The notes under the pieces: model-generated
The model's input: only the letters and a program-made list of their open reading frames with translations
Told to the model about the DNA's origin: nothing
Databases searched by the model: none
NCBI RefSeq assembly: GCF_900115975.1
Contig: NZ_FOYM01000022.1
Span: 1 to 61,289 of the forward strand
From: Desulfoscipio geothermicus DSM 3669
GTDB lineage: Bacteria; Bacillota; Desulfotomaculia; Desulfotomaculales; Desulfallaceae
DNA length: 61,289 bases
Direction of reading: 5' to 3'
In this document: positions 950 through 15,810 of the stretch, in pieces
Layout of the letters: the number at the start of each line of letters is the position of its first letter
How positions within the stretch are numbered: position 1 is the stretch's first letter
Position numbers and translations under genes: made by a program

Positions 950-2254
950 TTAATTGGAACGGGCCATCCAGGGATTGTAAAACGGAGGTATAGGGCAGGG
1001 GATTGCGCTGCACCGGTTTGAATAGCCCGAAAAACCTGCGGAATTATATGCTCGGATTCTGTAAGTATAGGTCATAAGCGGATACACGTTATAATCTGTA
1101 TAATTAGTCAGGTTGGGAGTACTTAATACAGCAATGGTCTGAAAATGTTCGGTTCCGGTTTTACGCTCCAGCACGAAACCTAACTCGTTTGTTGACCGGT
1201 CTTTCCAGTTGAGATGGACTGCAAGTGGACGCCACGATGCCCGGCAGGTAAGGTCCGACGGCGCTTCGGGTAATTCAACGGGTTCAGGTGGTGTCACATC
1301 CAACCGGGTAGCCATCCCGCCGGGGAACTGGGTTACATTATAAAGGTGATGAAGGTCCCGGTCATGTAGATAATATTGTCCTTCGGCCTCAGCAGTAAAA
1401 ATAAGGTCGTAAGTCTCTCCTGAAGCAATGGTGATTGTGTTTTTTAAATAAGTTGCATCAATGGAGCCCTGTCGGGGTTTTAAAGGCCAGCTGTCCACAG
1501 CCGCCACCCGGGCGGTAATGCCTTCGAGGCGGAAAGTGTGGTTTTGTGAGCCGGCATTTACGCATCTTAAAAGAACCTTTTGTCCGGTGGCAGCGTTAAT
1601 TTTGGAACTCACCGGCTGGTTAACGAGGAAATCTGACTGATCGGGCAGCACGGTATGGGGAAATGAACGCCCGTTAATGACCCAGTGGTCCGGTTCAAAG
1701 CCCAGCATGTTGAATTGGTTGCCGGCCCCGATTTGGGCATTGAACCTGCTGTCCACTTCGCCCAGGATCAGCACCTTTTCCACGTCAAAGTAGGTACCGG
1801 TATTACTTCCGTAAGCGGTTTTATAATCCGGATGGACGGGATTATCTATACCCTTCGGGTGAATTACTATTGCTCCGTATAGCCCCATGGTCACCTGTTT
1901 TTCCGGACTTGTTCCGCTTTCATACAAAAACACTCCCGGGCGGGTGGCGGTAAAGGTGTAATTCACCGACCCGCCTGGGGCGGCGTGGGTATTATATGAA
2001 ACGAAAATCCCATTATCCTTAACAGGTGACGGGATAGATTCCTGGCCCGGGAAAACCAATGATACAAACTCGCTAAGATTATTGTTTAGAGTAATTATTA
2101 TTTCATCGCCAACCCTGGCCCTTATTTCAGGACCGGGAAATTGCGGCTCGCCGCCGGCTGTAGTGGCAAATCCCCAGAAAGGAACCTCCGCCTCGTCGGG
2201 AAATTTTATAGTCCCCTGTTTGGCCCATAAATTCAGGTTTATAAAACCCATCAT
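950..2254 (-). CDS. Cupredoxin/multicopper-oxidase-like protein with C-terminal FN3 domain (MCO-C)
   Basis: About 434 aa starting at ATG-ATG, chosen because AAAGGAG lies eight bases upstream; a GTG further upstream lacks such a site. The fold follows multicopper oxidases (FPGPEIRARVGDEIIITL, then 'GVFLYESGT' and 'MGLYGAIVI'). The first-domain HxH ligands are replaced: LVFPGQE stands where HYHG is expected and LYESG where YHCH is expected. The C-terminal cupredoxin part keeps only scattered His ('HDRDLHHLYN') before FPGGM. The last ~90 residues (PSDLTCRASW to SAIPC) form a fibronectin type III domain. There is no signal peptide. It overlaps the end of MCO-B and is the last gene of the run. It is probably a structural or accessory subunit rather than an active oxidase. 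Confidence 0.8.
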   Translation of the reverse strand: MMGFINLNLWAKQGTIKFPDEAEVPFWGFATTAGGEPQFPGPEIRARVGDEIIITLNNNLSEFVSLVFPGQESIPSPVKDNGIFVSYNTHAAPGGSVNYTFTATRPGVFLYESGTSPEKQVTMGLYGAIVIHPKGIDNPVHPDYKTAYGSNTGTYFDVEKVLILGEVDSRFNAQIGAGNQFNMLGFEPDHWVINGRSFPHTVLPDQSDFLVNQPVSSKINAATGQKVLLRCVNAGSQNHTFRLEGITARVAAVDSWPLKPRQGSIDATYLKNTITIASGETYDLIFTAEAEGQYYLHDRDLHHLYNVTQFPGGMATRLDVTPPEPVELPEAPSDLTCRASWRPLAVHLNWKDRSTNELGFVLERKTGTEHFQTIAVLSTPNLTNYTDYNVYPLMTYTYRIRAYNSAGFSGYSNRCSAIPCPIPPFYNPWMARSN

Positions 2255-2286
2255 TATATCTCCTTTCTGTTCAAACCGCTCAAGCA

Positions 2287-3483
2287 CTAGTACGCTTCCG
2301 TAGGCAGCATACCCTGATGGGGTGCCAAAGTTCCGGAAGGGTAAACTGCTATCATGGTCATCATTCCGCCGGGGAAGGCACCCCAGTTGGTTATCTCGGG
2401 TTCCGCATGGGAGTGGAGCATCAAGTGATATTCCCCGGCCTGGTTATAGGAAACCACGTCGGGAGGAAGCTCTCCTTTTTGACCCAAATACGGGCTGCCG
2501 CTCCACATGGTCCACCCGAGGTGGCCAATGGCCATGTTCCGCAAATTGGGCAAAGTGGTGGGTATCGGGTTGGTCACCGGGTTATAACCTAAACCGGTCC
2601 AGGTATATATTTGGTCATAGGTCTGGCCCGCCCCCGTAAGGACGGTAAACCTTTTATATGACAGGTCGGTAGTACCTCCACCGTTTTGATTCCGTAATAA
2701 CCTTCCGTCCAAACCCACTAACCGGGTATGGTTGCCGTGCGGGTGCAAGGGATGGTTTTCCACTCCGGCCCCGGCATAGCGTATGAGCACTTTTTCGCCG
2801 GGTTCCATCATGATCATGGAGCTGCAGGGTTGATTGGGCAAATGGGGGACGTTGTCGGGAAGCATGGTATCACCGGCGCACCGGCCGTTAATTGTCCAGT
2901 ACCTGGGTTTATACGCCTCGTATGGCTGACCATATTCCACGGCCTGGTGAAAGTCGGGGTCTATCTCGCCGGTAATTAGTAGATATTCCCGGTTAAATTC
3001 GGTGTCGGTGCCCGCTCCGTAGGCAGTTTTATACTGGCTGTCATGGGGTGTGTAATCGCACGGCCGGACGATAATGGCCCCGTACAATCCCATTTGTAAC
3101 TGTTTGAAGGGGTTTGTTCCGCTCTCATAGAGGAAAGTACCCGGGCTGGCGGCGGTAAAGGTATAGGTAATGGTTTCACCGGGCAGGGCATGGTTGGTCA
3201 AGGAAACCAGGATGTCGTTTTCATACTGGGGCTGAACCGGCTGTCCGTTTGCCTTTACATTTTCCTGCCCGGGAAAAAGCAGGGATACCGGCTCCTTGAG
3301 GTTGTTGGTCAAGTTAACGGTAACCACGGTTTCAGTTATGGGCGCCTCTTGCTTTACTATAATAGTGGGGCCGGGGAGCCGGGCAGAGCCTCCCTCTTGG
3401 TCGGTAAAACCCCAAATATATATGCTTTTGCCGTCCGGGGTGCTGATATAACCGTCCGTTGCCCACAAATTTACGGTAGGCAT
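2287..3483 (-). CDS. Multicopper-oxidase-like protein with domain-3-type copper motifs (MCO-B)
   Basis: 398 aa; AAAGGAGAGG stands upstream of the ATG. The N-terminal cupredoxin domain is degenerate like that of MCO-C (LLFPGQE, 'FLYESGTNP'). The C-terminal domain keeps typical trinuclear-cluster motifs: HPLHPHG (His244, 247, 249) and HSHAEP (His357, 359), followed by FPGGMM. No Cys sits between the last two His, so a type 1 site in this domain is doubtful. Its ligands complement those of MCO-A encoded just upstream, which suggests a mixed assembly (inference). No signal peptide is present, as in the spore-coat oxidase CotA. Confidence 0.85.
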   Translation of the reverse strand: MPTVNLWATDGYISTPDGKSIYIWGFTDQEGGSARLPGPTIIVKQEAPITETVVTVNLTNNLKEPVSLLFPGQENVKANGQPVQPQYENDILVSLTNHALPGETITYTFTAASPGTFLYESGTNPFKQLQMGLYGAIIVRPCDYTPHDSQYKTAYGAGTDTEFNREYLLITGEIDPDFHQAVEYGQPYEAYKPRYWTINGRCAGDTMLPDNVPHLPNQPCSSMIMMEPGEKVLIRYAGAGVENHPLHPHGNHTRLVGLDGRLLRNQNGGGTTDLSYKRFTVLTGAGQTYDQIYTWTGLGYNPVTNPIPTTLPNLRNMAIGHLGWTMWSGSPYLGQKGELPPDVVSYNQAGEYHLMLHSHAEPEITNWGAFPGGMMTMIAVYPSGTLAPHQGMLPTEAY

Positions 3484-3513
3484 AGATTATTCCTCTCCTT
3501 TGGGTTATACTTA

Positions 3514-4566
3514 TTAGGATTGGTTGGGCTCCGTCTGGGGCGGCAGTGTTCCGGGTTCAAAAATCTGCACTTCGGTGATCATTCCACCCGGCCCCATCCC
3601 GGCCAGGGTATTTTTAATTAAATTTCGGTTATACAAAGGTAAAGTGAGGGGATAAGTATCCTCTGCTTCGGGTGCGGTAAATATGGCGTCCGTAGACTGC
3701 CCCGGGGCTATATAAATGATGTTTTTGTTATAAAAAAGATCTTCCCCGTACAGACCCGCCGGGCGCATGGCATCCAATCCGACCACCTTCATTACGGCAC
3801 CGAGCAGTTCGATGGCGTGCTGCTGAAAGCCCAGGTTAACAAAGCGCAGCAACACCTTTTCACCGGCGTGTGCCTTTATCAGTGCAGGCCATGGCTGCTG
3901 CCGCAATCTGCAAGCTGATGTTGATGCAATGGTATCCGGGTAAGAACGGCCGTTGATAAACCAGTAAGTTGGTTTATAATTCGTCCAATCCGGTTCCTGC
4001 ACCGTGGCAACCAAATTGTGGATCGTACAATCCAGTTCGTGCAGGAAGATAAAGTACTCCCGGTCATATTCCGTTCCGGTGCCGTAACCGTACGCAGTTT
4101 TGTAATCCGGGTCTGCCGGGTCATAGTCCCGGGGCCGGACGACCAGCGGCCCCACCATGCCCATTTGGATATGTTCCACGGGCTCATGGTGACAGTGATA
4201 CATATAGGTGCCGGGATCCAGGGGTTTGTAATGGAATACAAAATCCCTGCCTACGGGGACGGCCACGGATGCTTCCGGAACGCCGTCATAAATCGCCATC
4301 TGGTTTGGGAATCCGTGATAGTGTATGGTGTGCGGGTCATCCAGGTCCGGCCTGGTGGGAGTTCCCACGTTGGTTAGTGTAAGATATACCTCATCTCCCA
4401 CTTGTAGTACCAGCGGTGGGGCCATAAGTTCGGCTTTGCCCCTGTAATTAAAGATTTCATTCTCCGGTACCCCGGTTATATTTACGAACCCGAAAATGTA
4501 ATGACTTCGACCGTCGGGAGTGTCAACCCACCCGTCGGTGGCCGCCAGTCGTATATCCACTCTCAT
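3514..4566 (-). CDS. Multicopper-oxidase-like protein with HYH and HCH motifs (MCO-A)
   Basis: 350 aa from the ATG preceded by AAAGGAGGTAACAGG; the longer frame upstream is not needed. The N-terminal cupredoxin domain has an HYHG motif (His82, His84) and YHCHHEPVEHIQMGM (His124, Cys125, His126, His132, Met135/137), which supplies type 1 and type 2/3 ligands. The C-terminal domain carries only isolated His (GFQQHAIEL). The protein is short for a three-domain oxidase (usually ~500 aa) and fits a two-domain arrangement. It follows the 1555-aa gene by about 100 bp and precedes MCO-B and MCO-C on the same strand. The substrate is not evident; Mn(II), Fe(II) or phenolics are all possible. Confidence 0.87.
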   Translation of the reverse strand: MRVDIRLAATDGWVDTPDGRSHYIFGFVNITGVPENEIFNYRGKAELMAPPLVLQVGDEVYLTLTNVGTPTRPDLDDPHTIHYHGFPNQMAIYDGVPEASVAVPVGRDFVFHYKPLDPGTYMYHCHHEPVEHIQMGMVGPLVVRPRDYDPADPDYKTAYGYGTGTEYDREYFIFLHELDCTIHNLVATVQEPDWTNYKPTYWFINGRSYPDTIASTSACRLRQQPWPALIKAHAGEKVLLRFVNLGFQQHAIELLGAVMKVVGLDAMRPAGLYGEDLFYNKNIIYIAPGQSTDAIFTAPEAEDTYPLTLPLYNRNLIKNTLAGMGPGGMITEVQIFEPGTLPPQTEPNQS

Positions 4567-4663: not shown

Positions 4664-7600
4664 TTACTCCCGGTACTGATCCGCCCCGATGTCTATGCCG
4701 GGACCCCTGCTGTCTCCGTCAAAGTCATCCGTCGGGGTACTGTAGCCTTCAAAGGATCCGGTACCCCGGCCGATCACCGGAGAACCGCCGGTCAGATGAT
4801 AATCCCCTTCGAGCTCCGGTACGGCGGTAACTATGATGACACTCTTAAAATCCGGCTGGGCGGCGAAGGTGGCGGCTCTTACAGTGGTATCGTACTGTTG
4901 TACAAAAGCCGGGTTAGCTACTAAATTATTGCCACCCCCCGGGTATTCTTCAGTCAGGCTGCAGTAATGGGGGCTAAATGTTCCGGACGTGCCGAAAACC
5001 TCCAGGTCCATCACTCCGCCTTCGGCCAACTGCAGGGTCTGCAAATCAAAATAATAAGCCCGGTTATCCCAGAAGATATTGTTAAACAGTACCGGATCGC
5101 TGAAATCAGGCGAACCCGGGGGCAAAACAGCCCGGAAGGCCGTGCTGTGAACTTCACTGACCAGACCGGCCCCGTGGGGCGACCGGTCGCTGTCTTCGGC
5201 CGTGGCGGTGGAAATATTTTTGGCAATGGTATTGTTATAAATAATTACATTTGAGGCGTCGTCAAGGGCTATACCGCCGCCCAGGTCTGTGGATACGTTA
5301 TTGACGATCATGTTGTTGTAGATCTTAATTTCATAAGTGGTGGGCTGCAGCAGCCTGATGCCGCCGCCGTCGTCGTTGGCCAGGTTGCCCTGGATCAGAT
5401 TGTTATAGATACTGACGCTGCCCGAGCCGGGGGAGAGTTCCCCGGGCGGCTTGGGTAGTTCCCCGCCTACCAGTATCCCGGCTCCTTCGTCAAAGGAAGC
5501 GTTAAAGAGTATACAGTTGTGATGGATGCTCCCGTTATGGCTCAGGCCGTAGTGGGAAATACCACCGCCGTATTCGGCGGAGTAGTTCCCGCAGATTTTA
5601 TTATGATCAATTTCGTAATTATCCGCGCCGTTAAAAACACCTATTCCACCGGCCAGGTTAAGTCCGCCGTTATTCAGGATGCGGTTGTGATGTATCCTGA
5701 TGTTCTCATTATGGTTGCTGCCCGCATAAGGTTTACCGATGGTAACGGCGCCGCCGAATCCCCCGGAATTACTTTGCATAATGTTATTGCTTATTTCCAG
5801 GTACCGGCAGTAAGCATTAACGTATATGCCTCCTGCACCGTTGCCCCTGGCGTTGATAATGCTAAAACCGTCAATTAGGGAGCTAAACTGCATGTCCAGA
5901 TCCCCGTCTTTGGCCAGTACGGTCATTGCTTGGCCTTCGTAAATATCAGGGGTATCAATATAATCATAGTCAATGGTGCTTAAAAGGTTGCGCCATGGCG
6001 CAGGGTCCGTGAGGAAGAACCGGCCGTCGATGGTTGAACCCTCTACGGCTACCGGGTTTCCGTCCGGACCGTCGGGGTTAATGCCTCCGGGCCCCATTCC
6101 CTGCAGTTTCAACCTCTTGATCGGACCACCGGTTTGCCTGGAATATAATATGGGATTTTCGTAGTAAGTGCCCGGATGGACAACGATTAACGTTTCACCG
6201 GCGGCAGCATTGACTGCTTCCTGAATGGTGGCGTAATCCCCGGTGCCGTCCTGCTTAACATGCAACACCCTGGGGTTATAAACGCTGCCCAATACATGAA
6301 TGGTAATCCCGGTGGGGCTTACCTCGCCGTTGTCACCGGTTACCAGCAATTGCCCCGTTCCACCCTGATCGGAGACAATGGACGGCAGTATTTTTACCGT
6401 GATGGATGTATTATTCCAAGCCAGCACCTCAACATGGCTGTCGTCGCCGTTTATAGTTACTCTCCCCCCGCCCTGTGCGGTACCGAAATCAAGCCCGGTC
6501 AGGGTTATGATTCTTTCTTGGCCCGTCACTACCACCCGGTCTACCCTGAATATTTGCGGTATACCGCGCTCCACATTGCACTGCGGGGGGCGGGCAAACT
6601 GTGACCCGCTGTGGGCAACAAAGGCGGTTATGGGGAATAACGCTACATCTGCATAAGTGGTTTTCCCCGGCCATACGTCAAACACCAGGTTTAGGGTCTG
6701 GTAATTGGGATTATAATTAAGGTTTGGTTGGCCGGGGTCACCGGGGTCGTTGCCTACAACCCGGTACATATGCGGGACTAACCCGGATGGGGTGGGTACG
6801 TTGGCGGTGTAGGTTGAGGGCAGCAGCACTTCAAAAATACCGTTTTTGTCCGAGTATACCGTGGTAATTAGTCTACCGTTGTAGTCCCTGATGCCGACGG
6901 GGGTATGGGGAATGCCTCTTTTATCGCCGTAAAAAATGAGATTGGGGTCGGTTTCAATATTTACATCGTCCGACAGTAAACCCAGGATCCTGCCGGGAAT
7001 GGGGACATCCGTATACAGGAAGAAATCTGCCGCCGCGTTTTCCCCGTTTCCCAGGATTACCTCTTTCATGTTGCAAAGAGGCCGGTATTCACCGTCGTAG
7101 GGGCTCCGGGGGTCCTGCACCTTGTGCAGTTTTCCGGCGCAGGGGGGGGCGGGAATCCAGGCCCGGCTTTCGGGCACTGGTTTTGTTTCCGGACATACCG
7201 GTTCCCCGTTTTCCTCGAAGGGAAAATCAGTGTTCATAACATACCTGTCACCTTGGTCGGTGTTTACAGACTCCTCTGCTACCACCCTGTATAACGGCCT
7301 CGGGCCGCCGTCCGGAAGGGGGTTGTTATAGTCCGCCTGTGGGACTGCTTCAACGTAGTAGGTTCCGGCCGGCAGTGGTTCCGTCAGGTATTCGCCGGTG
7401 TCAGGATCAGTTACCGGCCGGTAATTTTCGTCAAGGATCCATTTTTCTTCAAAGGCATAACCTCCGTCAAATACTCCCGGCCTGACCTGGTTCCCCAGGC
7501 TGGGCTTTTCGATACACCGGGGGTCCTCCGGACCATAGGGAGGAACACAACCCGTGGGGTGGGTCCAGGCGTCCGTTTCAACGGTGTTGATCAGGATAAG

Positions 7601-9331
7601 GGTTCCATCGTCGTTTTTTTGATAAAGATTTACCGTTACTCCGGGTATACCGGGTTCGTAATCCTCTGCCGCGGCATAACGGGGATCAAATTCATTGCGC
7701 ATGGTGGCGTAATAAACAATACCGGTTATACCCCCGTTTTCGCCCGGTTTATAAGTTCGCTTACCGAAATCTATATAGTTGGTACTGCCGGCCCAGGTTA
7801 ATACGGCAGCAGTCAGCGCCCCGTCAAACACTTCGGGCACGGGGTAACGTCCTTCGGGATTGGCGGCAACTCCTGTTCGGGCTAAACGGGTAAAGCTCAC
7901 CTCTGCCACAGTAAAACGTTCCAGTTCAAATACCTCGTTGAAATTGTAATTGCCTTCAGAATCAGTGATGGTTGCGTATTGAATTGAAGCATCTTTAAAA
8001 CGCGTGAGCACCCCCGTGAAGGGAATACCTTTTTCACCGGGGTCGGGGATACCGTTTTCATTATTATCCATAAACACTTTTCCTTTAATCCAGCCGTACC
8101 AGCGGGGAATTGCTATTTGCCCCGGGTAATTCACCGGGTCATCTTCCACCACCACGTCCCAGGAACCGTTTGGGCCAGGTACTTGCACCGTGCGAAAAGA
8201 GATGATATAATCCAGGAATTCATCCCAAACGGCCATCTGGTACAAACCAGGAAGAACATTCTTAATGTAAAAAGAACCGTTCTCTTCTCCGCGGCCCAGG
8301 TAGACCTGCTGGTCGTTACCCCCGATATCAGTTAGGGCAATCCAGGGACGCTTTACCGGCTCTCCCATCAAAATTGGCACATTGGGAGCTTCAAACTCAA
8401 GAACCGTGCGCACTTGCCCCCGGATAAAGCCCCTGGTCTCTCCCGGTTGAGGGGCAGGAAACTCCATAGGCCGGACGAATCCGAACCATACCAACGGAAA
8501 ACGGTAGAAGAACTCATCGACATAGCCGTCATTTCCTTCCTCCACCCAGGCGTCAATAACATGCGTTCCCTCAATGGTGGTGGTCTGTACCCAGTCCGTC
8601 CCGTCAGGCGGGATTGCCTGCACTCCGTATTTGCCCGGGGGAATGTTTTCCACCACGGCATAACCCTCTGCATCGCTCAATATAACTCCACCGGTATTGG
8701 GTATGGGAACAGGTTTGCCGTCGGCATCGAAAATAATATTTCCGTGGCCATCTTTCTGATATTGGGTTCCCAGTGGGTTTCCGAAATAATCTACGGTTAA
8801 TTCACCCACCGCGTCTTCAATAATAATGCGGAATCCTTCCAGCCCTGTTTCGGAAGGCAGGTCCGGCTCCCCGTTGACCGGCTGGTTGTCGTGAAAAACA
8901 AAAGCCCGGATTTTACTTAGTGGAAGGGGGTGGGGGAGCAGTTCAACGACAACTTCCGCATCACTGCCGTCCACTGTGACCCAGTTACCGCCCAGCTTGT
9001 ATCCCGGCGCCCTGGCGGACACAAGATAACTGCCGTCGGGCACGTAAACAACGGGGTTGGCGGAATCTCCCACGGTAACTACCGGGCTGTGGCTTGCCGG
9101 GGGGTTAATGGAAGGAATTTTGCTTTCATCAATTTGATCAGCAGGCACTCCTAATTGCGGGTCACCGATATTGTTCCGGTTAATAATAAACTTGAAATCA
9201 TCAAGGGGAACCGGTGAACCGTTACTCCGGCGGCCGAAGACTTTAACCGTAAGAGCCCGTATTTCCGTTGCCGTACTGGATGTGGCAGGACGTTTACCTG
9301 AATCAATTGATGAAAATACGTCGCTGGCCAT
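4664..9331 (-). CDS. Giant surface protein: SdrD-B-like repeats, IPT/TIG domain, parallel beta-helix
   Basis: 1555 aa; AAGGAGG precedes the ATG. The N-terminal two thirds holds several carboxypeptidase-regulatory/SdrD-B-like beta-sandwich units, for example VFMDNNENGIPDPGEKGI near residue 430 and others near 140 and 535. An IPT/TIG domain lies near residues 920-1010. A pectate-lyase-like right-handed beta-helix starts near 1022 (HVKQDGTGDYATIQEAV), with many 'NNI/NNTI' turns and glycine-rich stretches. There is no Sec signal peptide, LPXTG or transmembrane anchor, which would suit assembly on a spore from the mother cell. It heads a run with three oxidase-like genes, so it may be their scaffold. 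Both points are inference. Confidence 0.85.
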   Translation of the reverse strand: MASDVFSSIDSGKRPATSSTATEIRALTVKVFGRRSNGSPVPLDDFKFIINRNNIGDPQLGVPADQIDESKIPSINPPASHSPVVTVGDSANPVVYVPDGSYLVSARAPGYKLGGNWVTVDGSDAEVVVELLPHPLPLSKIRAFVFHDNQPVNGEPDLPSETGLEGFRIIIEDAVGELTVDYFGNPLGTQYQKDGHGNIIFDADGKPVPIPNTGGVILSDAEGYAVVENIPPGKYGVQAIPPDGTDWVQTTTIEGTHVIDAWVEEGNDGYVDEFFYRFPLVWFGFVRPMEFPAPQPGETRGFIRGQVRTVLEFEAPNVPILMGEPVKRPWIALTDIGGNDQQVYLGRGEENGSFYIKNVLPGLYQMAVWDEFLDYIISFRTVQVPGPNGSWDVVVEDDPVNYPGQIAIPRWYGWIKGKVFMDNNENGIPDPGEKGIPFTGVLTRFKDASIQYATITDSEGNYNFNEVFELERFTVAEVSFTRLARTGVAANPEGRYPVPEVFDGALTAAVLTWAGSTNYIDFGKRTYKPGENGGITGIVYYATMRNEFDPRYAAAEDYEPGIPGVTVNLYQKNDDGTLILINTVETDAWTHPTGCVPPYGPEDPRCIEKPSLGNQVRPGVFDGGYAFEEKWILDENYRPVTDPDTGEYLTEPLPAGTYYVEAVPQADYNNPLPDGGPRPLYRVVAEESVNTDQGDRYVMNTDFPFEENGEPVCPETKPVPESRAWIPAPPCAGKLHKVQDPRSPYDGEYRPLCNMKEVILGNGENAAADFFLYTDVPIPGRILGLLSDDVNIETDPNLIFYGDKRGIPHTPVGIRDYNGRLITTVYSDKNGIFEVLLPSTYTANVPTPSGLVPHMYRVVGNDPGDPGQPNLNYNPNYQTLNLVFDVWPGKTTYADVALFPITAFVAHSGSQFARPPQCNVERGIPQIFRVDRVVVTGQERIITLTGLDFGTAQGGGRVTINGDDSHVEVLAWNNTSITVKILPSIVSDQGGTGQLLVTGDNGEVSPTGITIHVLGSVYNPRVLHVKQDGTGDYATIQEAVNAAAGETLIVVHPGTYYENPILYSRQTGGPIKRLKLQGMGPGGINPDGPDGNPVAVEGSTIDGRFFLTDPAPWRNLLSTIDYDYIDTPDIYEGQAMTVLAKDGDLDMQFSSLIDGFSIINARGNGAGGIYVNAYCRYLEISNNIMQSNSGGFGGAVTIGKPYAGSNHNENIRIHHNRILNNGGLNLAGGIGVFNGADNYEIDHNKICGNYSAEYGGGISHYGLSHNGSIHHNCILFNASFDEGAGILVGGELPKPPGELSPGSGSVSIYNNLIQGNLANDDGGGIRLLQPTTYEIKIYNNMIVNNVSTDLGGGIALDDASNVIIYNNTIAKNISTATAEDSDRSPHGAGLVSEVHSTAFRAVLPPGSPDFSDPVLFNNIFWDNRAYYFDLQTLQLAEGGVMDLEVFGTSGTFSPHYCSLTEEYPGGGNNLVANPAFVQQYDTTVRAATFAAQPDFKSVIIVTAVPELEGDYHLTGGSPVIGRGTGSFEGYSTPTDDFDGDSRGPGIDIGADQYRE

Positions 9332-9377: not shown

Positions 9378-9405
9378 AGTTTATCCTGGACTCCTGGCAA
9401 TATGA
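9378..9405 (-). promoter_or_regulatory. Possible sigma-E-type sporulation promoter
   Basis: On the minus strand TCATATT (9399-9405) is followed after 13 bases by GATAAACT (9378-9385). The first fits the sigma-E -35 consensus; the second matches 6 of 8 positions of its -10 consensus. The predicted start lies about 40 bases before the large gene. The -35 half is part of hairpin repeat B, and copy A (656-662) has the same arrangement. This is an AT-rich match only. Confidence 0.3.
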
Positions 9406-9512
9406 CACCGGTGTGGGAGAGTAGTTAATTAATACTCTTCCTGCACCGGTGTTTGTATAGATGGTCTGTCCCAGGATGTGTTTGACGGAAATTAGATGCC
9501 GATCTCCCCTTT
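9396..9512. repeat. Hairpin repeat, copy B
   Basis: Second copy of the element at 653-770, in the same orientation, with its hairpin at 9406-9451. It stands between the NTTRR-F1-like gene at 9524 and the large beta-helix gene, so it separates the locus into two transcription units. On the minus strand the hairpin precedes the putative sigma-E promoter. Confidence 0.75.
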
Positions 9513-9523
9513 TAATACAAGTA

Positions 9524-10003
9524 TTAAGTATCTAGAATAAGAAAAATATCGTCAAAATCTACTTCGTTGTCATCCCCGGAAGCAACTGTAATGGTTACCA
9601 CGACACCAAAGGGAGCCCCGAAGGGGAGTGGACCGCTGAATCCTTCATAAGATAACCAATCATCTTTACTCTTCTCTGGATTTGAGTCCGCCGGTATTTC
9701 AATAGTTATAATAGGTAACAAGGATCCCAAAGGAGTAACTGTGGCGGTTATATCTGTTGGTTTTTTTTCTTGTATTTTCATCCAAAATAAAAGTCTTAAT
9801 GAACTTAAAGGCAAAATAGGCAGGAGGACGAACTGGCTGATTGATGCCGAACCCATGTTTGCTGTCAATTTTACAAACTCGGTCCCTGTGTGGGCTTTGT
9901 CACTACTGCTTGAAGACTCAACAGTTACGTCACCCGCACTGATCCAGGGCGGGAGCGATCCCGTTTCAAACCCCGGGTTTACTAAAAGTTGTATTTCCGG
10001 CAT
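9524..10003 (-). CDS. NTTRR-F1-like surface protein
   Basis: 159 aa, start ATG with AGGGTGAT upstream. The N-terminus 'LLVNPGFETGSLPPW' followed by ~'AHTGTEFVKL' and 'SISQFV' is the pattern of the NTTRR-F1 domain, which opens many Firmicute exosporium/spore-surface repeat proteins. Here the domain stands alone (carbohydrate-binding-like jelly roll) and ends in an acidic 'EVDFDDIFLILD' strand, without collagen-like repeats. No signal peptide is seen. Its neighbour at 10371 is a divergent paralogue, and the pair suggests that the oxidase locus belongs to the spore surface. Confidence 0.7.
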   Translation of the reverse strand: MPEIQLLVNPGFETGSLPPWISAGDVTVESSSSSDKAHTGTEFVKLTANMGSASISQFVLLPILPLSSLRLLFWMKIQEKKPTDITATVTPLGSLLPIITIEIPADSNPEKSKDDWLSYEGFSGPLPFGAPFGVVVTITVASGDDNEVDFDDIFLILDT

Positions 10004-10370: not shown

Positions 10371-10919
10371 TCAGCCCTGGAAAAACGGGATTCCCGACTG
10401 AATAGGGGGTGCCAGGGGTATTGGCGGTAGGGCTGCGGGTGTGACCGTTCCGGCAACCAGCGCCAGGTCGTCAACCAGTATCCCGCTCGTCCCGGTGGCG
10501 GGCTTTTCCAGGCGAATGACTACCTGGGCGGCCACTGCGCCGGCAGGCACTTCGCCGTATTCATCATAATAATTCCATCTCTTTCTAGAAAGGTTACGGC
10601 TCCTTATGTTAATAACCATGCCGGGCGGAATAACTGTACCCAATGCACTTAAGAAATTTACTTCAGATCTGACGCTGGATGAGCACTGAACATCCTCGCT
10701 GCGGTACTTCCTGGCCCGGAAGGAAAATCTGAGCGGAGTACCGGGGGTGATAAAGAAAACTATCTGTGATAACTCGGCAATTAAAGTCGGGTTTGCCAGC
10801 AGTAACGCCGATCTCATGCCGGAATGGGCAATCTCGCTGTTAATTGTAACGGTGCCCCGGGTTTGGAAGTTAAACAGCTCATTTTCAAATCCCCTGTTTA
10901 ATAGAATCTGTTTGGCCAT
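10371..10919 (-). CDS. Divergent NTTRR-F1-like surface protein
   Basis: 182 aa; AGAGGTGATTTC precedes the ATG. It shares the plan of the protein at 9524: 'LLNRGFENELFNFQTRG', 'AHSGMRSALL', 'ELSQIVFF' and a closing 'GILVDDLALV' strand, then a proline-rich tail (IPLAPPIQSG). It is probably a beta-sandwich spore-surface protein. It is the first gene of the minus-strand locus that continues into the oxidases. Confidence 0.65.
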   Translation of the reverse strand: MAKQILLNRGFENELFNFQTRGTVTINSEIAHSGMRSALLLANPTLIAELSQIVFFITPGTPLRFSFRARKYRSEDVQCSSSVRSEVNFLSALGTVIPPGMVINIRSRNLSRKRWNYYDEYGEVPAGAVAAQVVIRLEKPATGTSGILVDDLALVAGTVTPAALPPIPLAPPIQSGIPFFQG

Positions 10920-12623: not shown

Positions 12624-13310
12624 TTATTCTTCTTTGGAAAACTCATCCTTGCCCGCGCCGCAAACGGGGCAGACCCAGTCTTCCGGCAGTTTTTCAAAGG
12701 GGGTGTCCGGGGCGATGCCGTTTTCCGGGTCGCCTGTCGCCGGGTCGTAAACGTAGCCGCAAAGATTGCACACGTATTTGTCCATTTTCTCCATCCTTTC
12801 CGCTTTTTGGGGGGTATAGGTCGGGGCGGTTTGGGGCACGGTTCCCTTCTTAATCTGGTGGTAGTAGGCGTAGGTCATGGCAATACCTTCCTTCAGCACT
12901 TCCGCCCCGGTTACTTTGCCGATAAATATGTGGTGCGTTCCGGCATCCACTTCCTGGATCACTTCAGCTTCCATACAGGCCAGTACATGATCAGTTAAAC
13001 AGGGTACCCCGGTAATACCCGGCTTATAATTGATACCCGCGAATTTATCCACCTGCCGGCCGCTCTTGAAGCCGAACCGGCCGATCAAAGAAAGCGGGGC
13101 TTCTTGGGCCAGTACGGACACGCCGAAGACTTTACTGTCCCTGATAAATTCACTGGTCAGGTTTTGCTTGTTGATACTGACGGCGACGGTGGTCGGGTCG
13201 TTGGATATCTGAAACACTGTGTTGGCCACCTGCCCGTTGATTTGGTCACCTTTCTTGGAGGTGACGATATACAGTCCGTAGCTGATTTTATGCAGGGCTT
13301 TGGGGTTCAA
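12624..13310 (-). CDS. hrb: High-molecular-weight rubredoxin (flavin reductase-rubredoxin fusion)
   Basis: 228 aa. Residues 1-155 form a flavin-reductase-like FMN-binding domain ([15 protein letters not shown], then [14 protein letters not shown]). Residues ~175-228 form a rubredoxin with [10 protein letters not shown] and [11 protein letters not shown] iron-binding Cys pairs. In Moorella-type anaerobes Hrb passes electrons from NAD(P)H to the flavodiiron protein FprA for NO or O2 reduction. It is the last gene of an operon that starts with fprA, which supports that pairing. Confidence 0.93.
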
Positions 13311-13335
13311 GTCAAAACCTCCTTGGTTGAACTAC

Positions 13336-13908
13336 TTAGTAATTGGCGCACCAGAGTTCGTAATAACTCCGGGGATGGGCGCAGGCGGGACAGTTTTCCG
13401 GCGCGCTTTCGCCCTCGTGCAGGTAACCGCAGTTACGGCACTTCCAGATCACCTTTTCTTCCCGCTGGAAAACTTTATTTTGTTTGATGTTTTCCAGCAG
13501 GGCGTTAAAACGTCTTTCATGCCCGTCTTCCGCCCTGGCTATGGCTCGGAAAACGGCGGCGATTTCAGGAAAACCTTCCTCATCAGCCACTTTGGCAAAC
13601 TCGGGGTACATGTCGGTGTGTTCGTGGTTTTCCCCCGCAGCGGAAGCCCGCAGGTTTTCCTCTGTGCTGCCGATTGTCCCGGCGGGGAATGAGGCGGTGA
13701 TTTCCGCTTCTCCGCCCTGCAGGAACTTAAACAGTCGCTTGGCGTGTTCCTTTTCGTGGTCCGCCGTTTCCAGGAAAACAGCGGCTATTTGCTCGTAACC
13801 CTCTTTTTTGGCTACGCTTGCGAAGTAGGTGTAGCGGTTCCTGGCCTGGGATTCTCCCGCAAAAGCGGTCAGAATGTTTTTTTCTGTACGGGTACCTTTT
13901 AATTGCAT
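13336..13908 (-). CDS. Rubrerythrin
   Basis: 190 aa from the ATG before [10 protein letters not shown], with AAAGGAG upstream; an earlier TTG overlaps that site. The ferritin-like diiron domain shows '[13 protein letters not shown]', '[14 protein letters not shown]' and '[11 protein letters not shown]' (Glu and His ligands). The C-terminus is a rubredoxin-type centre ([22 protein letters not shown]). It reduces hydrogen peroxide in the anaerobic cytoplasm. It stands between the rubredoxin and hrb genes in the stress operon. Confidence 0.95.
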
Positions 13909-13970
13909 AATAACCAGTGCTCCTTTCAATTCCCTGCAGGGTAATGCATACTCCGGCAGGGGATTTCATA

Positions 13971-14165
13971 TTAGTTTTCCCTGGGGAATTTTGACCGGGC
14001 CACCTGGTGTTCCGGTCTGAACCGGTCTTTTTCCGCCAGGCATTCCGGGCACTCCCAGTCTTCCGGCAATTCTTCAAAGGAAGTGCCCGGGGCGATGCCG
14101 TTTTCCGGGTCGCCCGTCGCCGGGTCGTAAACGTAGCCGCAAAGCTCGCAAATCCACTTTTCCAT
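13971..14165 (-). CDS. Rubredoxin
   Basis: 64 aa with the two canonical loops [14 protein letters not shown] and [11 protein letters not shown] that bind one Fe. The second loop has Leu where Gly is usual. It probably supplies electrons to superoxide reductase, rubrerythrin or FprA. A basic tail of ten residues extends beyond the usual 52-54 aa. The region 14098-14160 and the rubredoxin part of hrb (12714-12780) are nearly identical in DNA, suggesting recent duplication or gene conversion. Confidence 0.95.
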
Positions 14166-14186
14166 CTCGAACTCCTTATTGTAAAA

Positions 14187-14561
14187 TTAAGCTTTCCAGT
14201 GGCCGTGCAGGTTGCAATAAGTCCTGGCCGTAATGTTGTCCGCGTCAACGGTGAATACCGCCACCGGCTTGTCGCCGGGTTGGAGAAACTGCCGGTAAGT
14301 TTTATCGCCGGCAATTACTTCAATCCACTCGATGTAGTGTTTTTCCTCCATCGGGTGCTCTGCGCTGCCGACTTTCACCGTTACTTGCCCGGCGGCCTTT
14401 TCCACCACCGGAACGTGTTTTTCCCTGGCGGCATCCACCGTGTTTTCGGCCAGCAGTGCCATGGGCCGGTTGCAACATACCAGTTGCCCCTTTCCCCCGT
14501 GCAAAACTTCCACAATATTACCGCAAACATTACACTTGTAAACCTGTCTTAATTCAGCCAT
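14187..14561 (-). CDS. dfx: Desulfoferrodoxin (superoxide reductase)
   Basis: 124 aa. The N-terminal desulforedoxin-like centre I has CNVCG and a CC pair. Centre II has the His ligands in HYIEWIEV and the closing CNLHGHWKA motif. It reduces superoxide to peroxide using rubredoxin, whose gene follows directly. AGGAGGA precedes the ATG. Confidence 0.95.
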
Positions 14562-14628
14562 GTTAAAAGTCCTCCTTTATTTGTAATTTAAAATTTATAC
14601 CGTACCGGCCCCGGTTATCCGGCCGGTA

Positions 14629-15810
14629 TCAAATCTGTTCTCCCAGCTTTCTGCCTGCGGCCCTGACCGACTCCAGTTCCTCGTCACCGGGCAGGTATTG
14701 GATGTTGATAAAATCAAGTGGGGTTTCCCAGCCCATCTCTTTCATGACGGCAGCCACTTCTTTGGCACCCTGGCCGCCCCAACCGTAAGAACCGAAGGCC
14801 AGGCCGATGCGTTTTTTCGGTCGCAGGCCCTTGATATAGGTTAAAAATGCGCTGACGGTGGGCAGCATGCCGTTGTTTAAAGTGGGGGAGCCGATTAAGA
14901 TAGCTCTGGCGGTTAACAGGTCGGTCATAATTTCGGAGATGTGGCTGGTCTGTAAAAACCTCATTGTAACCGGCACTCCCGCATCCTCCAGCCCGTCCCG
15001 GAGTGCCAGCGCGATCCTCTTGGTGGAATCCCACATGGTATCGTACACAATGAGCGCCTTTTTATCAGTTTCATTGCCGGCCCACCGGCGGTATACCGGC
15101 AAAATCTTTTGTATGTAAGAGCGCCAGATTACCCCGTGGCTGGGTGCGATCATGTCTATGTCCAACCGGCCCACGACATCCAGTGCCTTGTTCACGTTAT
15201 CTCCGTAGGGGAGCACTATATTGGCGTAGTATGTGGCCGCCTCTTCATGAATGATATCCCAGCCCACCTCGTCGTCAAAACGCCCGTCGCCGGCTATATG
15301 CTGCCCGAAAGCATCGTTGGGCAAAAGAAGTTTATCCTGCGGGATGTAGGTGACCATGGAATCGGGCCAGTGAACCATCGGCACATGTACAAACTTCAAG
15401 GTCCGGGAACCAATCGACAGCTCTTCGCCCGACTTGACTGCCAAAAAATCCCAATCATCCTTTTTATAATACCTTTTCAGTCCTTTTTGGCCCTGCGGGG
15501 AGGTAACCAGTTTCGCTCCGGGGGCCAGTTCCATGATTTTGGGCACGCTGCCGGAGTGGTCCATCTCCACGTGGTTTGATACCAGGTAATCTATTTTTGA
15601 CGGGTCCACAATTTTTTTGATTCTGCTCAGCATTTCATCAAACAGGTAATGCTTGACGGTATCCACCAGGGTAATTTTGTCATCCACAATAAGGTAGGCG
15701 TTATAGGTGGTGCCCCGCGGGGTTACATATCCGTGGAAGTAGCGCAGGTTCCAGTCGATGGCGCCAACCCAGTATATTCCAGGTTTGATTTCTACAGGTT
15801 TCAATTGCAT
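14629..15810 (-). CDS. fprA: A-type flavodiiron protein (NO/O2 reductase)
   Basis: 393 aa. The metallo-beta-lactamase-like diiron domain carries NHVEMDHSG (the H-x-E-x-D motif), and later 'PNDAFGQH' and 'APSHGVIWR'. The flavodoxin domain starts near residue 250 (ALIVYDTMWDSTKRIA) and binds FMN. The enzyme detoxifies NO or O2 to N2O or water in anaerobes. It is the first gene of the five-gene operon, directly behind a strong promoter. Confidence 0.95.
   Translation of the reverse strand: MQLKPVEIKPGIYWVGAIDWNLRYFHGYVTPRGTTYNAYLIVDDKITLVDTVKHYLFDEMLSRIKKIVDPSKIDYLVSNHVEMDHSGSVPKIMELAPGAKLVTSPQGQKGLKRYYKKDDWDFLAVKSGEELSIGSRTLKFVHVPMVHWPDSMVTYIPQDKLLLPNDAFGQHIAGDGRFDDEVGWDIIHEEAATYYANIVLPYGDNVNKALDVVGRLDIDMIAPSHGVIWRSYIQKILPVYRRWAGNETDKKALIVYDTMWDSTKRIALALRDGLEDAGVPVTMRFLQTSHISEIMTDLLTARAILIGSPTLNNGMLPTVSAFLTYIKGLRPKKRIGLAFGSYGWGGQGAKEVAAVMKEMGWETPLDFINIQYLPGDEELESVRAAGRKLGEQI

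Follow-up and report, generated by a model that had tools for sequence, protein, structure and literature searches.

How is the active site of a multicopper oxidase (MCO) built when its copper ligands lie scattered over adjacent genes? The question is raised by a locus of Desulfoscipio geothermicus DSM 3669, in a window of 61,289 nucleotides (the whole stretch of DNA analysed; NCBI RefSeq assembly GCF_900115975.1, contig NZ_FOYM01000022.1), where three neighbouring genes encode the MCO-like proteins A, B and C. A first-pass annotation of this DNA had described a tandem of three genes at 950-4566, with the ligands of one trinuclear centre shared between A and B, and had offered either an obligate hetero-oligomer or one enzyme with two structural paralogues as explanation. 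The three genes are present, while the operon begins upstream of them with a fourth gene, D. The open reading frames (ORFs) of the window are arranged in the order D, A, B, C on the minus strand, with short intergenic gaps:

4664..9331, minus strand: D, first gene of the operon, a 1555-amino-acid (aa) SdrD_B / CarboxypepD_reg / TIG / right-handed beta-helix protein
3514..4566, minus strand: MCO-A, 350 aa, two cupredoxin domains; the first (D1) has the type 1 Cu site and half of the trinuclear cluster, the second (D2) is ligand-less
2287..3483, minus strand: MCO-B, 398 aa, two cupredoxin domains; D1 is ligand-less, D2 has the other half of the trinuclear cluster and no type 1 Cys
950..2254, minus strand: MCO-C, two cupredoxin domains with no Cu ligands in either; proposed structural subunit
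1013..1264, minus strand: fn3-like extension at the C-terminus of C (E 5e-4, under the Pfam cut-off)

Good ribosome-binding sites precede A (AAAGGAGG), B and C, and the ATG start codon of C is preceded by AAAGGAG. Pfam Cu-oxidase_3 / Cu-oxidase_2 score over the cut-off in A, B and C, and each chain has two cupredoxin domains, on the evidence of Pfam and PDB matches to both halves in A and C, and of a Pfam match to D1 together with Cu-oxidase_2 and a 3g5w alignment for D2 in B. The nearest solved structures to all three are two-domain MCOs (2dMCOs), such as 3g5w and 2zwn. Alignment with 3g5w placed the copper ligands in four motifs, two in the first domain of A (A-D1) and two in the second domain of B (B-D2):

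4312..4332, minus strand: A-D1 motif HTIHYHG, residues 79-85; H79 type 1, H82 and H84 trinuclear; 66/66; aligns with HTIHWHG of 3g5w
4156..4197, minus strand: A-D1 motif HCHHEPVEHIQMGM, residues 124-137; H124 and H126 trinuclear, C125, H132 and M137 type 1; aligns with HCHVNVNEHVTMRGM of 3g5w
2734..2754, minus strand: B-D2 motif HPLHPHG, residues 244-250; H247 and H249 trinuclear; 66/66; aligns with HAIHTHG of 3g5w
2407..2415, minus strand: B-D2 motif HSH, residues 357-359; H357 and H359 trinuclear; 64-65/66; aligns with HDH of 3g5w

Since the first motif of A is HxxHxH, the whole type 1 site (H79, C125, H132, M137) lies in A-D1 alone; neither B nor C has such a site. The trinuclear ligands are H82, H84, H124 and H126 on A-D1, and H247, H249, H357 and H359 on B-D2. 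We checked these positions in 66 complete triads of A, B and C that span several phyla. In A, H79, H82, H84, C125, H126 and H132 were present in 66/66, H124 in 65/66 and M137 in 64/66; in B, H247 and H249 were present in 66/66, H357 in 64/66 and H359 in 65/66, all eight cluster histidines thus being 97-100% conserved. No HxH pair was found in the homologous columns of A-D2, B-D1, C-D1 and C-D2 in these triads. A lone His at the L2a column, with its partner absent, occurs in B-D1 (20/66) and C-D1 (5/66) and may be a relic. Judged from these alignments, the division of ligands between A and B is not a matter of chance. The HYH and HCH of A were where the first-pass annotation had put them, and its view of one trinuclear centre with four HxH motifs shared out between A and B is borne out in the triads examined. 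Its HPLHPH and HSH motifs of B are likewise real, while the domain that it had called domain-3-like is the second of only two in B and corresponds to domain 3 in laccases.

The arrangement is best compared with the type C 2dMCOs, which are homotrimers (3g5w; related 2zwn). Each of their chains, like A, B and C, consists of two cupredoxin domains. They have type 1 Cu in D1 and cluster ligands in HxH/HCH motifs of D1 and HxxHxH/HxH motifs of D2, and every motif of A-D1 and B-D2 has its aligned counterpart in them. Type C enzymes are the product of one gene and have three identical sites, whereas the triad consists of three paralogous genes with a split site, and one site per presumed trimer. In 66/66 triads no single chain had both halves of the cluster: A is without the D2 half, B without the D1 half and C without both. 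Only A and B together possess both halves, and the triad is therefore a variant, not a plain member, of the type C 2dMCOs. A homotrimer of A, complete by itself, which the first-pass annotation had named as the outcome that would overturn its proposal, is excluded by sequence because all four histidines are missing from A-D2.

The trinuclear cluster of 2dMCO trimers takes its ligands from D1 of one monomer and D2 of the adjacent one (PMC13151041). We consider it likely, from the distribution of ligands, that D-A-B-C encodes one extracytoplasmic MCO of three different two-domain subunits, an obligate heterotrimer with a single active site at the B-A interface. In a ring of A, B and C, one interface would be live, with B-D2 against A-D1, where by analogy the histidines would converge into one cluster, and two would be empty (A-D2 to C-D1 and C-D2 to B-D1). 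The type 1 Cu of A would take electrons from the substrate, Cys125, placed between His124 and His126, would pass them to the cluster, and the cluster would reduce O2 to water. C would occupy the third place in the ring, and D would anchor or scaffold the enzyme. Such a 1:1:1 ring would account for the three genes, the complementary losses and a ligand-less third subunit that is always kept.

The occurrence of B beside A bears directly on this proposal. A scan of GTDB genomes with an A profile yielded 80 named loci, of which 73 have B beside A, and A-D2 lacks HxH in all 73. Among the seven loci without B, four retain their own D2 HxH (three from Ktedonobacteria, L104, L105 and L106, and a Fictibacillus protein, L110), one from Clostridium (L112) is degenerate, and two (L054, L076) end at a contig edge. 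The Ktedonobacteria proteins are single, self-sufficient two-domain oxidases near A, usable as a proxy for a homotrimeric ancestor. In the genome of the window (99.99% complete), Cu-oxidase_3/Cu-oxidase_2 matches were found nowhere outside A, B and C; therefore the sole possible partners of A are B and C.

These observations speak against three independent proteins, with A as a blue (type 1) electron-transfer or nitrite-reductase-like protein, B as a half-site Cu-binding or chaperone protein and C as an adhesin. A does match copper nitrite reductase models (TIGR02376, E 9e-11) and has its type 1 Cu in domain 1; NirK/AniA are also two-domain trimers with type 1 Cu in D1. However, NirK/AniA have no trinuclear cluster, while A keeps both HxH pairs, the trinuclear pattern, and its score is 41.7 bits against a cut-off of 296.3 bits. 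On score and ligands, identity of A with copper nitrite reductase was rejected. The missing half of A, moreover, is found on the adjacent B across the triads and is absent from the rest of the genome of the window. Independence of the three proteins thus appears most improbable.

The first-pass annotation had C losing nearly all ligands and gaining an FN3 domain; the loss is borne out, whereas the fn3-like C-terminus is a sub-threshold match confined to certain lineages and missing from many relatives. C evolves fastest, with per-domain identities of 42% and 35% as compared to 43-57% in A and B, and acquires variable extensions. As the ligands are on A and B only, these two might form the active pair by themselves, for example as an A:B dimer or as a ring of A2B or AB2 composition, and C might be a separate assembly factor or part of another complex. 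Yet wherever the contig extends far enough, C almost always adjoins A and B; it is homologous to them across both cupredoxin domains, and a closed trimer with a single A-B interface has exactly one place for a ligand-less subunit. An active pair without the A:B:C ring is therefore unlikely in our estimate, and the alternatives left by the first-pass annotation resolve best, as far as can be read from the ligands, as A and B probably forming one active interface with C as a structural subunit. Three points weigh against the ring of A, B and C. Ligand-less B-D1 is better conserved (53% identity) than B-D2 (46%), and conservation alone therefore cannot single out the proposed live interface. The subunit order required in the ring does not follow from the A-B-C order of the genes. 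Most host Bacillota are anaerobes, in which an O2-using enzyme would need a special niche.

A 94-sequence tree was used to examine the descent of the three genes. Each of the three proteins formed one clade, with 99, 99 and 89 support for A, B and C, respectively, in the SH-like approximate likelihood ratio test (SH-aLRT), and within each clade the same three sub-lineages were seen: Bacillota; Proteobacteria/Planctomycetes/Myxococcota; and Chloroflexota/Actinomycetota. Three clades with matching sub-lineages point to one old triplication, and the simplest reading of the tree would be that A, B and C were inherited jointly thereafter. B adjoins C and A adjoins the stand-alone 2dMCOs, the latter grouping, in a tree made by a quick method with a midpoint root, possibly reflecting in part common ligand columns. 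Comparison of the distance matrices for the four proteins, D included, gave correlations of 0.77-0.90, the highest being A-B (r = 0.90).

A triplicated two-domain unit with a single surviving trinuclear site is also what the six-domain MCOs (MnxG, ceruloplasmin) possess. In ceruloplasmin and the bacterial six-domain oxidases, the six domains are fused and share a single cluster. Type 1 Cu sits in even domains; in the bacterial proteins this is domain 2, and the cluster lies between it and domain 3 (PMC3600357). The triad could accordingly be a split six-domain oxidase of MnxG/ceruloplasmin type: both have six cupredoxin domains and one of three trinuclear sites left, the summed length of about 1,200 aa compares with 1,227 for MnxG, and C matches MnxG 9bxa weakly (E 1e-4). 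Against this, the six domains of the triad are not in one chain, its type 1 Cu is in the first-type domain instead of an even (second-type) one, and the best matches are two-domain MCOs, not MnxG. A simple split of MnxG was rejected, as the type 1 site sits in the other kind of domain, and descent of the triad from such an oxidase is highly unlikely. From the type 1 position and the two-domain best matches, the resemblance to MnxG is therefore one of solution and not of descent, and the triad is probably a separate, parallel reduction of the kind seen in six-domain MCOs.

D, A, B and C occur in the same order in the genome of the window and nine relatives; in one more relative, a contig fragment reaches only C. 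The hosts of the 80 loci, some of which are the same genomes as in this set of relatives, so that the two sets are not independent, include Desulforudis, Desulfocucumis, Thermincola, Moorella, Desulfallas and Tepidibacillus among Bacillota, and members of Chloroflexota, Actinomycetota, Pseudomonadota, Planctomycetota, Myxococcota, a Dormibacteraeota metagenome-assembled genome (MAG) and others beyond it. Contigs of 60,013 bases are present in both L048, a MAG labelled Actinobacteria, and G019 of the order of the window; the name of L048 is probably a mislabel. In a phylum sample of 299 genomes, an A orthologue (E < 1e-60) was found in 15, and every one of these yielded matches to B and/or C as well. 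A, B and C are three separate ORFs in the window and in the triads examined, and fusion of A with B, or of B with C, was not established. No relative was found in viral contigs. SCO1/SenC and CopC/CopD copper-delivery genes and a cytochrome c were found near some non-Bacillota loci. Downstream of the triad in L068 (16195-17178) lies a membrane protein with no Pfam family, whose flanking-protein cluster spans 27 non-Bacillota loci, but was built by single linkage and may mix families.

D, mostly 1500-2500 aa long outside the window, is linked to the triad in nearly all loci with sufficient upstream sequence, the sole clear exception being Desulfocucumis (L035). In gamma/betaproteobacteria (L088, L089, L093, L094, L108 and the Gallionellaceae genome G399) C and D are a single protein, D being joined to the C-terminal end of C. 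These fusions and the linkage favour a physical association of D with the triad, in which it would probably serve as scaffold or surface anchor. An apparent D-A fusion in L084 was rejected, as a hydrophobic signal-like stretch lies at the joint. A weak match of D to NosD reflects the beta-helix and shows no copper role.

In G399 (3,003,656 bp; the family of L108), A is 528 aa, B is 527 aa and the C-D fusion is 2879 aa, with a CxxCH-containing 535-aa protein downstream. From its gene composition, this locus is presumably Slit_1812-1818 of Sideroxydans lithotrophicus ES-1. The G399 genes resemble those of the window in A (HTVHFHG and HCH..EH..MGM) and B (HPFHFHG and WHSH), with C fused to D and the cytochrome-like gene downstream. 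In the available text of the publications on strain ES-1, Slit_1812-1818 includes three extracellular MCO/cupredoxin proteins with no role assigned (PMC5566968, PMC12016527). In the proteomics of Keffer et al. 2025 (PMC12016527), levels of Slit_1816-1818 rose when cells grew on magnetite; two of the proteins are described as having canonical MCO motifs, and the third as larger, with adhesin and polysaccharide-lyase-like domains. A site divided between proteins is not mentioned in the available text of these publications, and we found no description of a divided MCO site in the open-access literature. Slit_1816-1818 have already been published as magnetite-induced 'cupredoxins'. Through this match, published expression data already point to solid Fe(II) for the A-B-C family. 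As for the substrate, our best guess is a reduced metal outside the cell, most likely Fe(II) or Mn(II).

Where would the enzyme act? By a simple hydropathy test, as distinct from a signal-peptide predictor, no hydrophobic N-terminal stretch was found in A, B, C or D of 24-25 Bacillota loci, and one was found in 169/190 cases in other phyla. Outside Bacillota, a twin-arginine motif was present in A in 27/50 and was almost confined to A. MnxG and CotA are spore-surface oxidases produced without signal peptides. Since these two reach spores in this way, the most natural explanation in Bacillota, by analogy, would be assembly in the mother cell followed by placement on the spore, and the Bacillota enzyme is thus probably on the spore surface. 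Every genome of the phylum sample that carries the triad has spoIVA, yet so do 250/299 genomes, and its co-occurrence alone is therefore not informative for a link with sporulation. A loose sigma-K-like pattern lay upstream of D in 8/20 regions as compared to 2.5 expected, a weak signal because strict patterns gave none. No spore link in Moorella was found in the open-access literature.

A 98-nucleotide repeat (637-734 and 9380-9477; 90% identical, same orientation, strong hairpin with z = -4) flanks D-A-B-C, with no further copy elsewhere in the genome; the pair may be the mark of a transferred cassette, or a paired regulatory/terminator element. A short ORF downstream of C (686-943), resembling a transposase N-terminus by eye, overlaps one copy. 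Upstream of D, 9524-10003 and 10371-10919 encode two small uncharacterised proteins, possibly surface or spore proteins, one of which matches CBM_4_9 weakly. A few kb upstream, 12624-15810 encodes a flavin reductase-rubredoxin, a rubrerythrin and a flavodiiron (ODP) protein, predicted to be an O2-defence group of a presumed anaerobe beside an O2-using oxidase.

We lean towards regarding D-A-B-C as representing an ancient and widespread class of obligate heterotrimeric MCO, in which one four-Cu centre would come from two gene products and a third paralogue would be a ligand-less member of the ring; this unfused counterpart of ceruloplasmin/MnxG would have been reached separately from the type C line, and in Bacillota would be an enzyme of the spore surface, assembled inside the mother cell. 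If true, this would be an MCO whose single active centre is genetically divided. A or B expressed singly would likely be inactive, and annotation pipelines would be giving separate enzyme names to proteins that probably have no activity on their own. The orphan gene cluster induced in solid-iron oxidation would gain a concrete identity. The triad would also be a living, unfused example of the step, long assumed for the origin of ceruloplasmin-type proteins, in which a two-domain unit is triplicated and one site is then kept.

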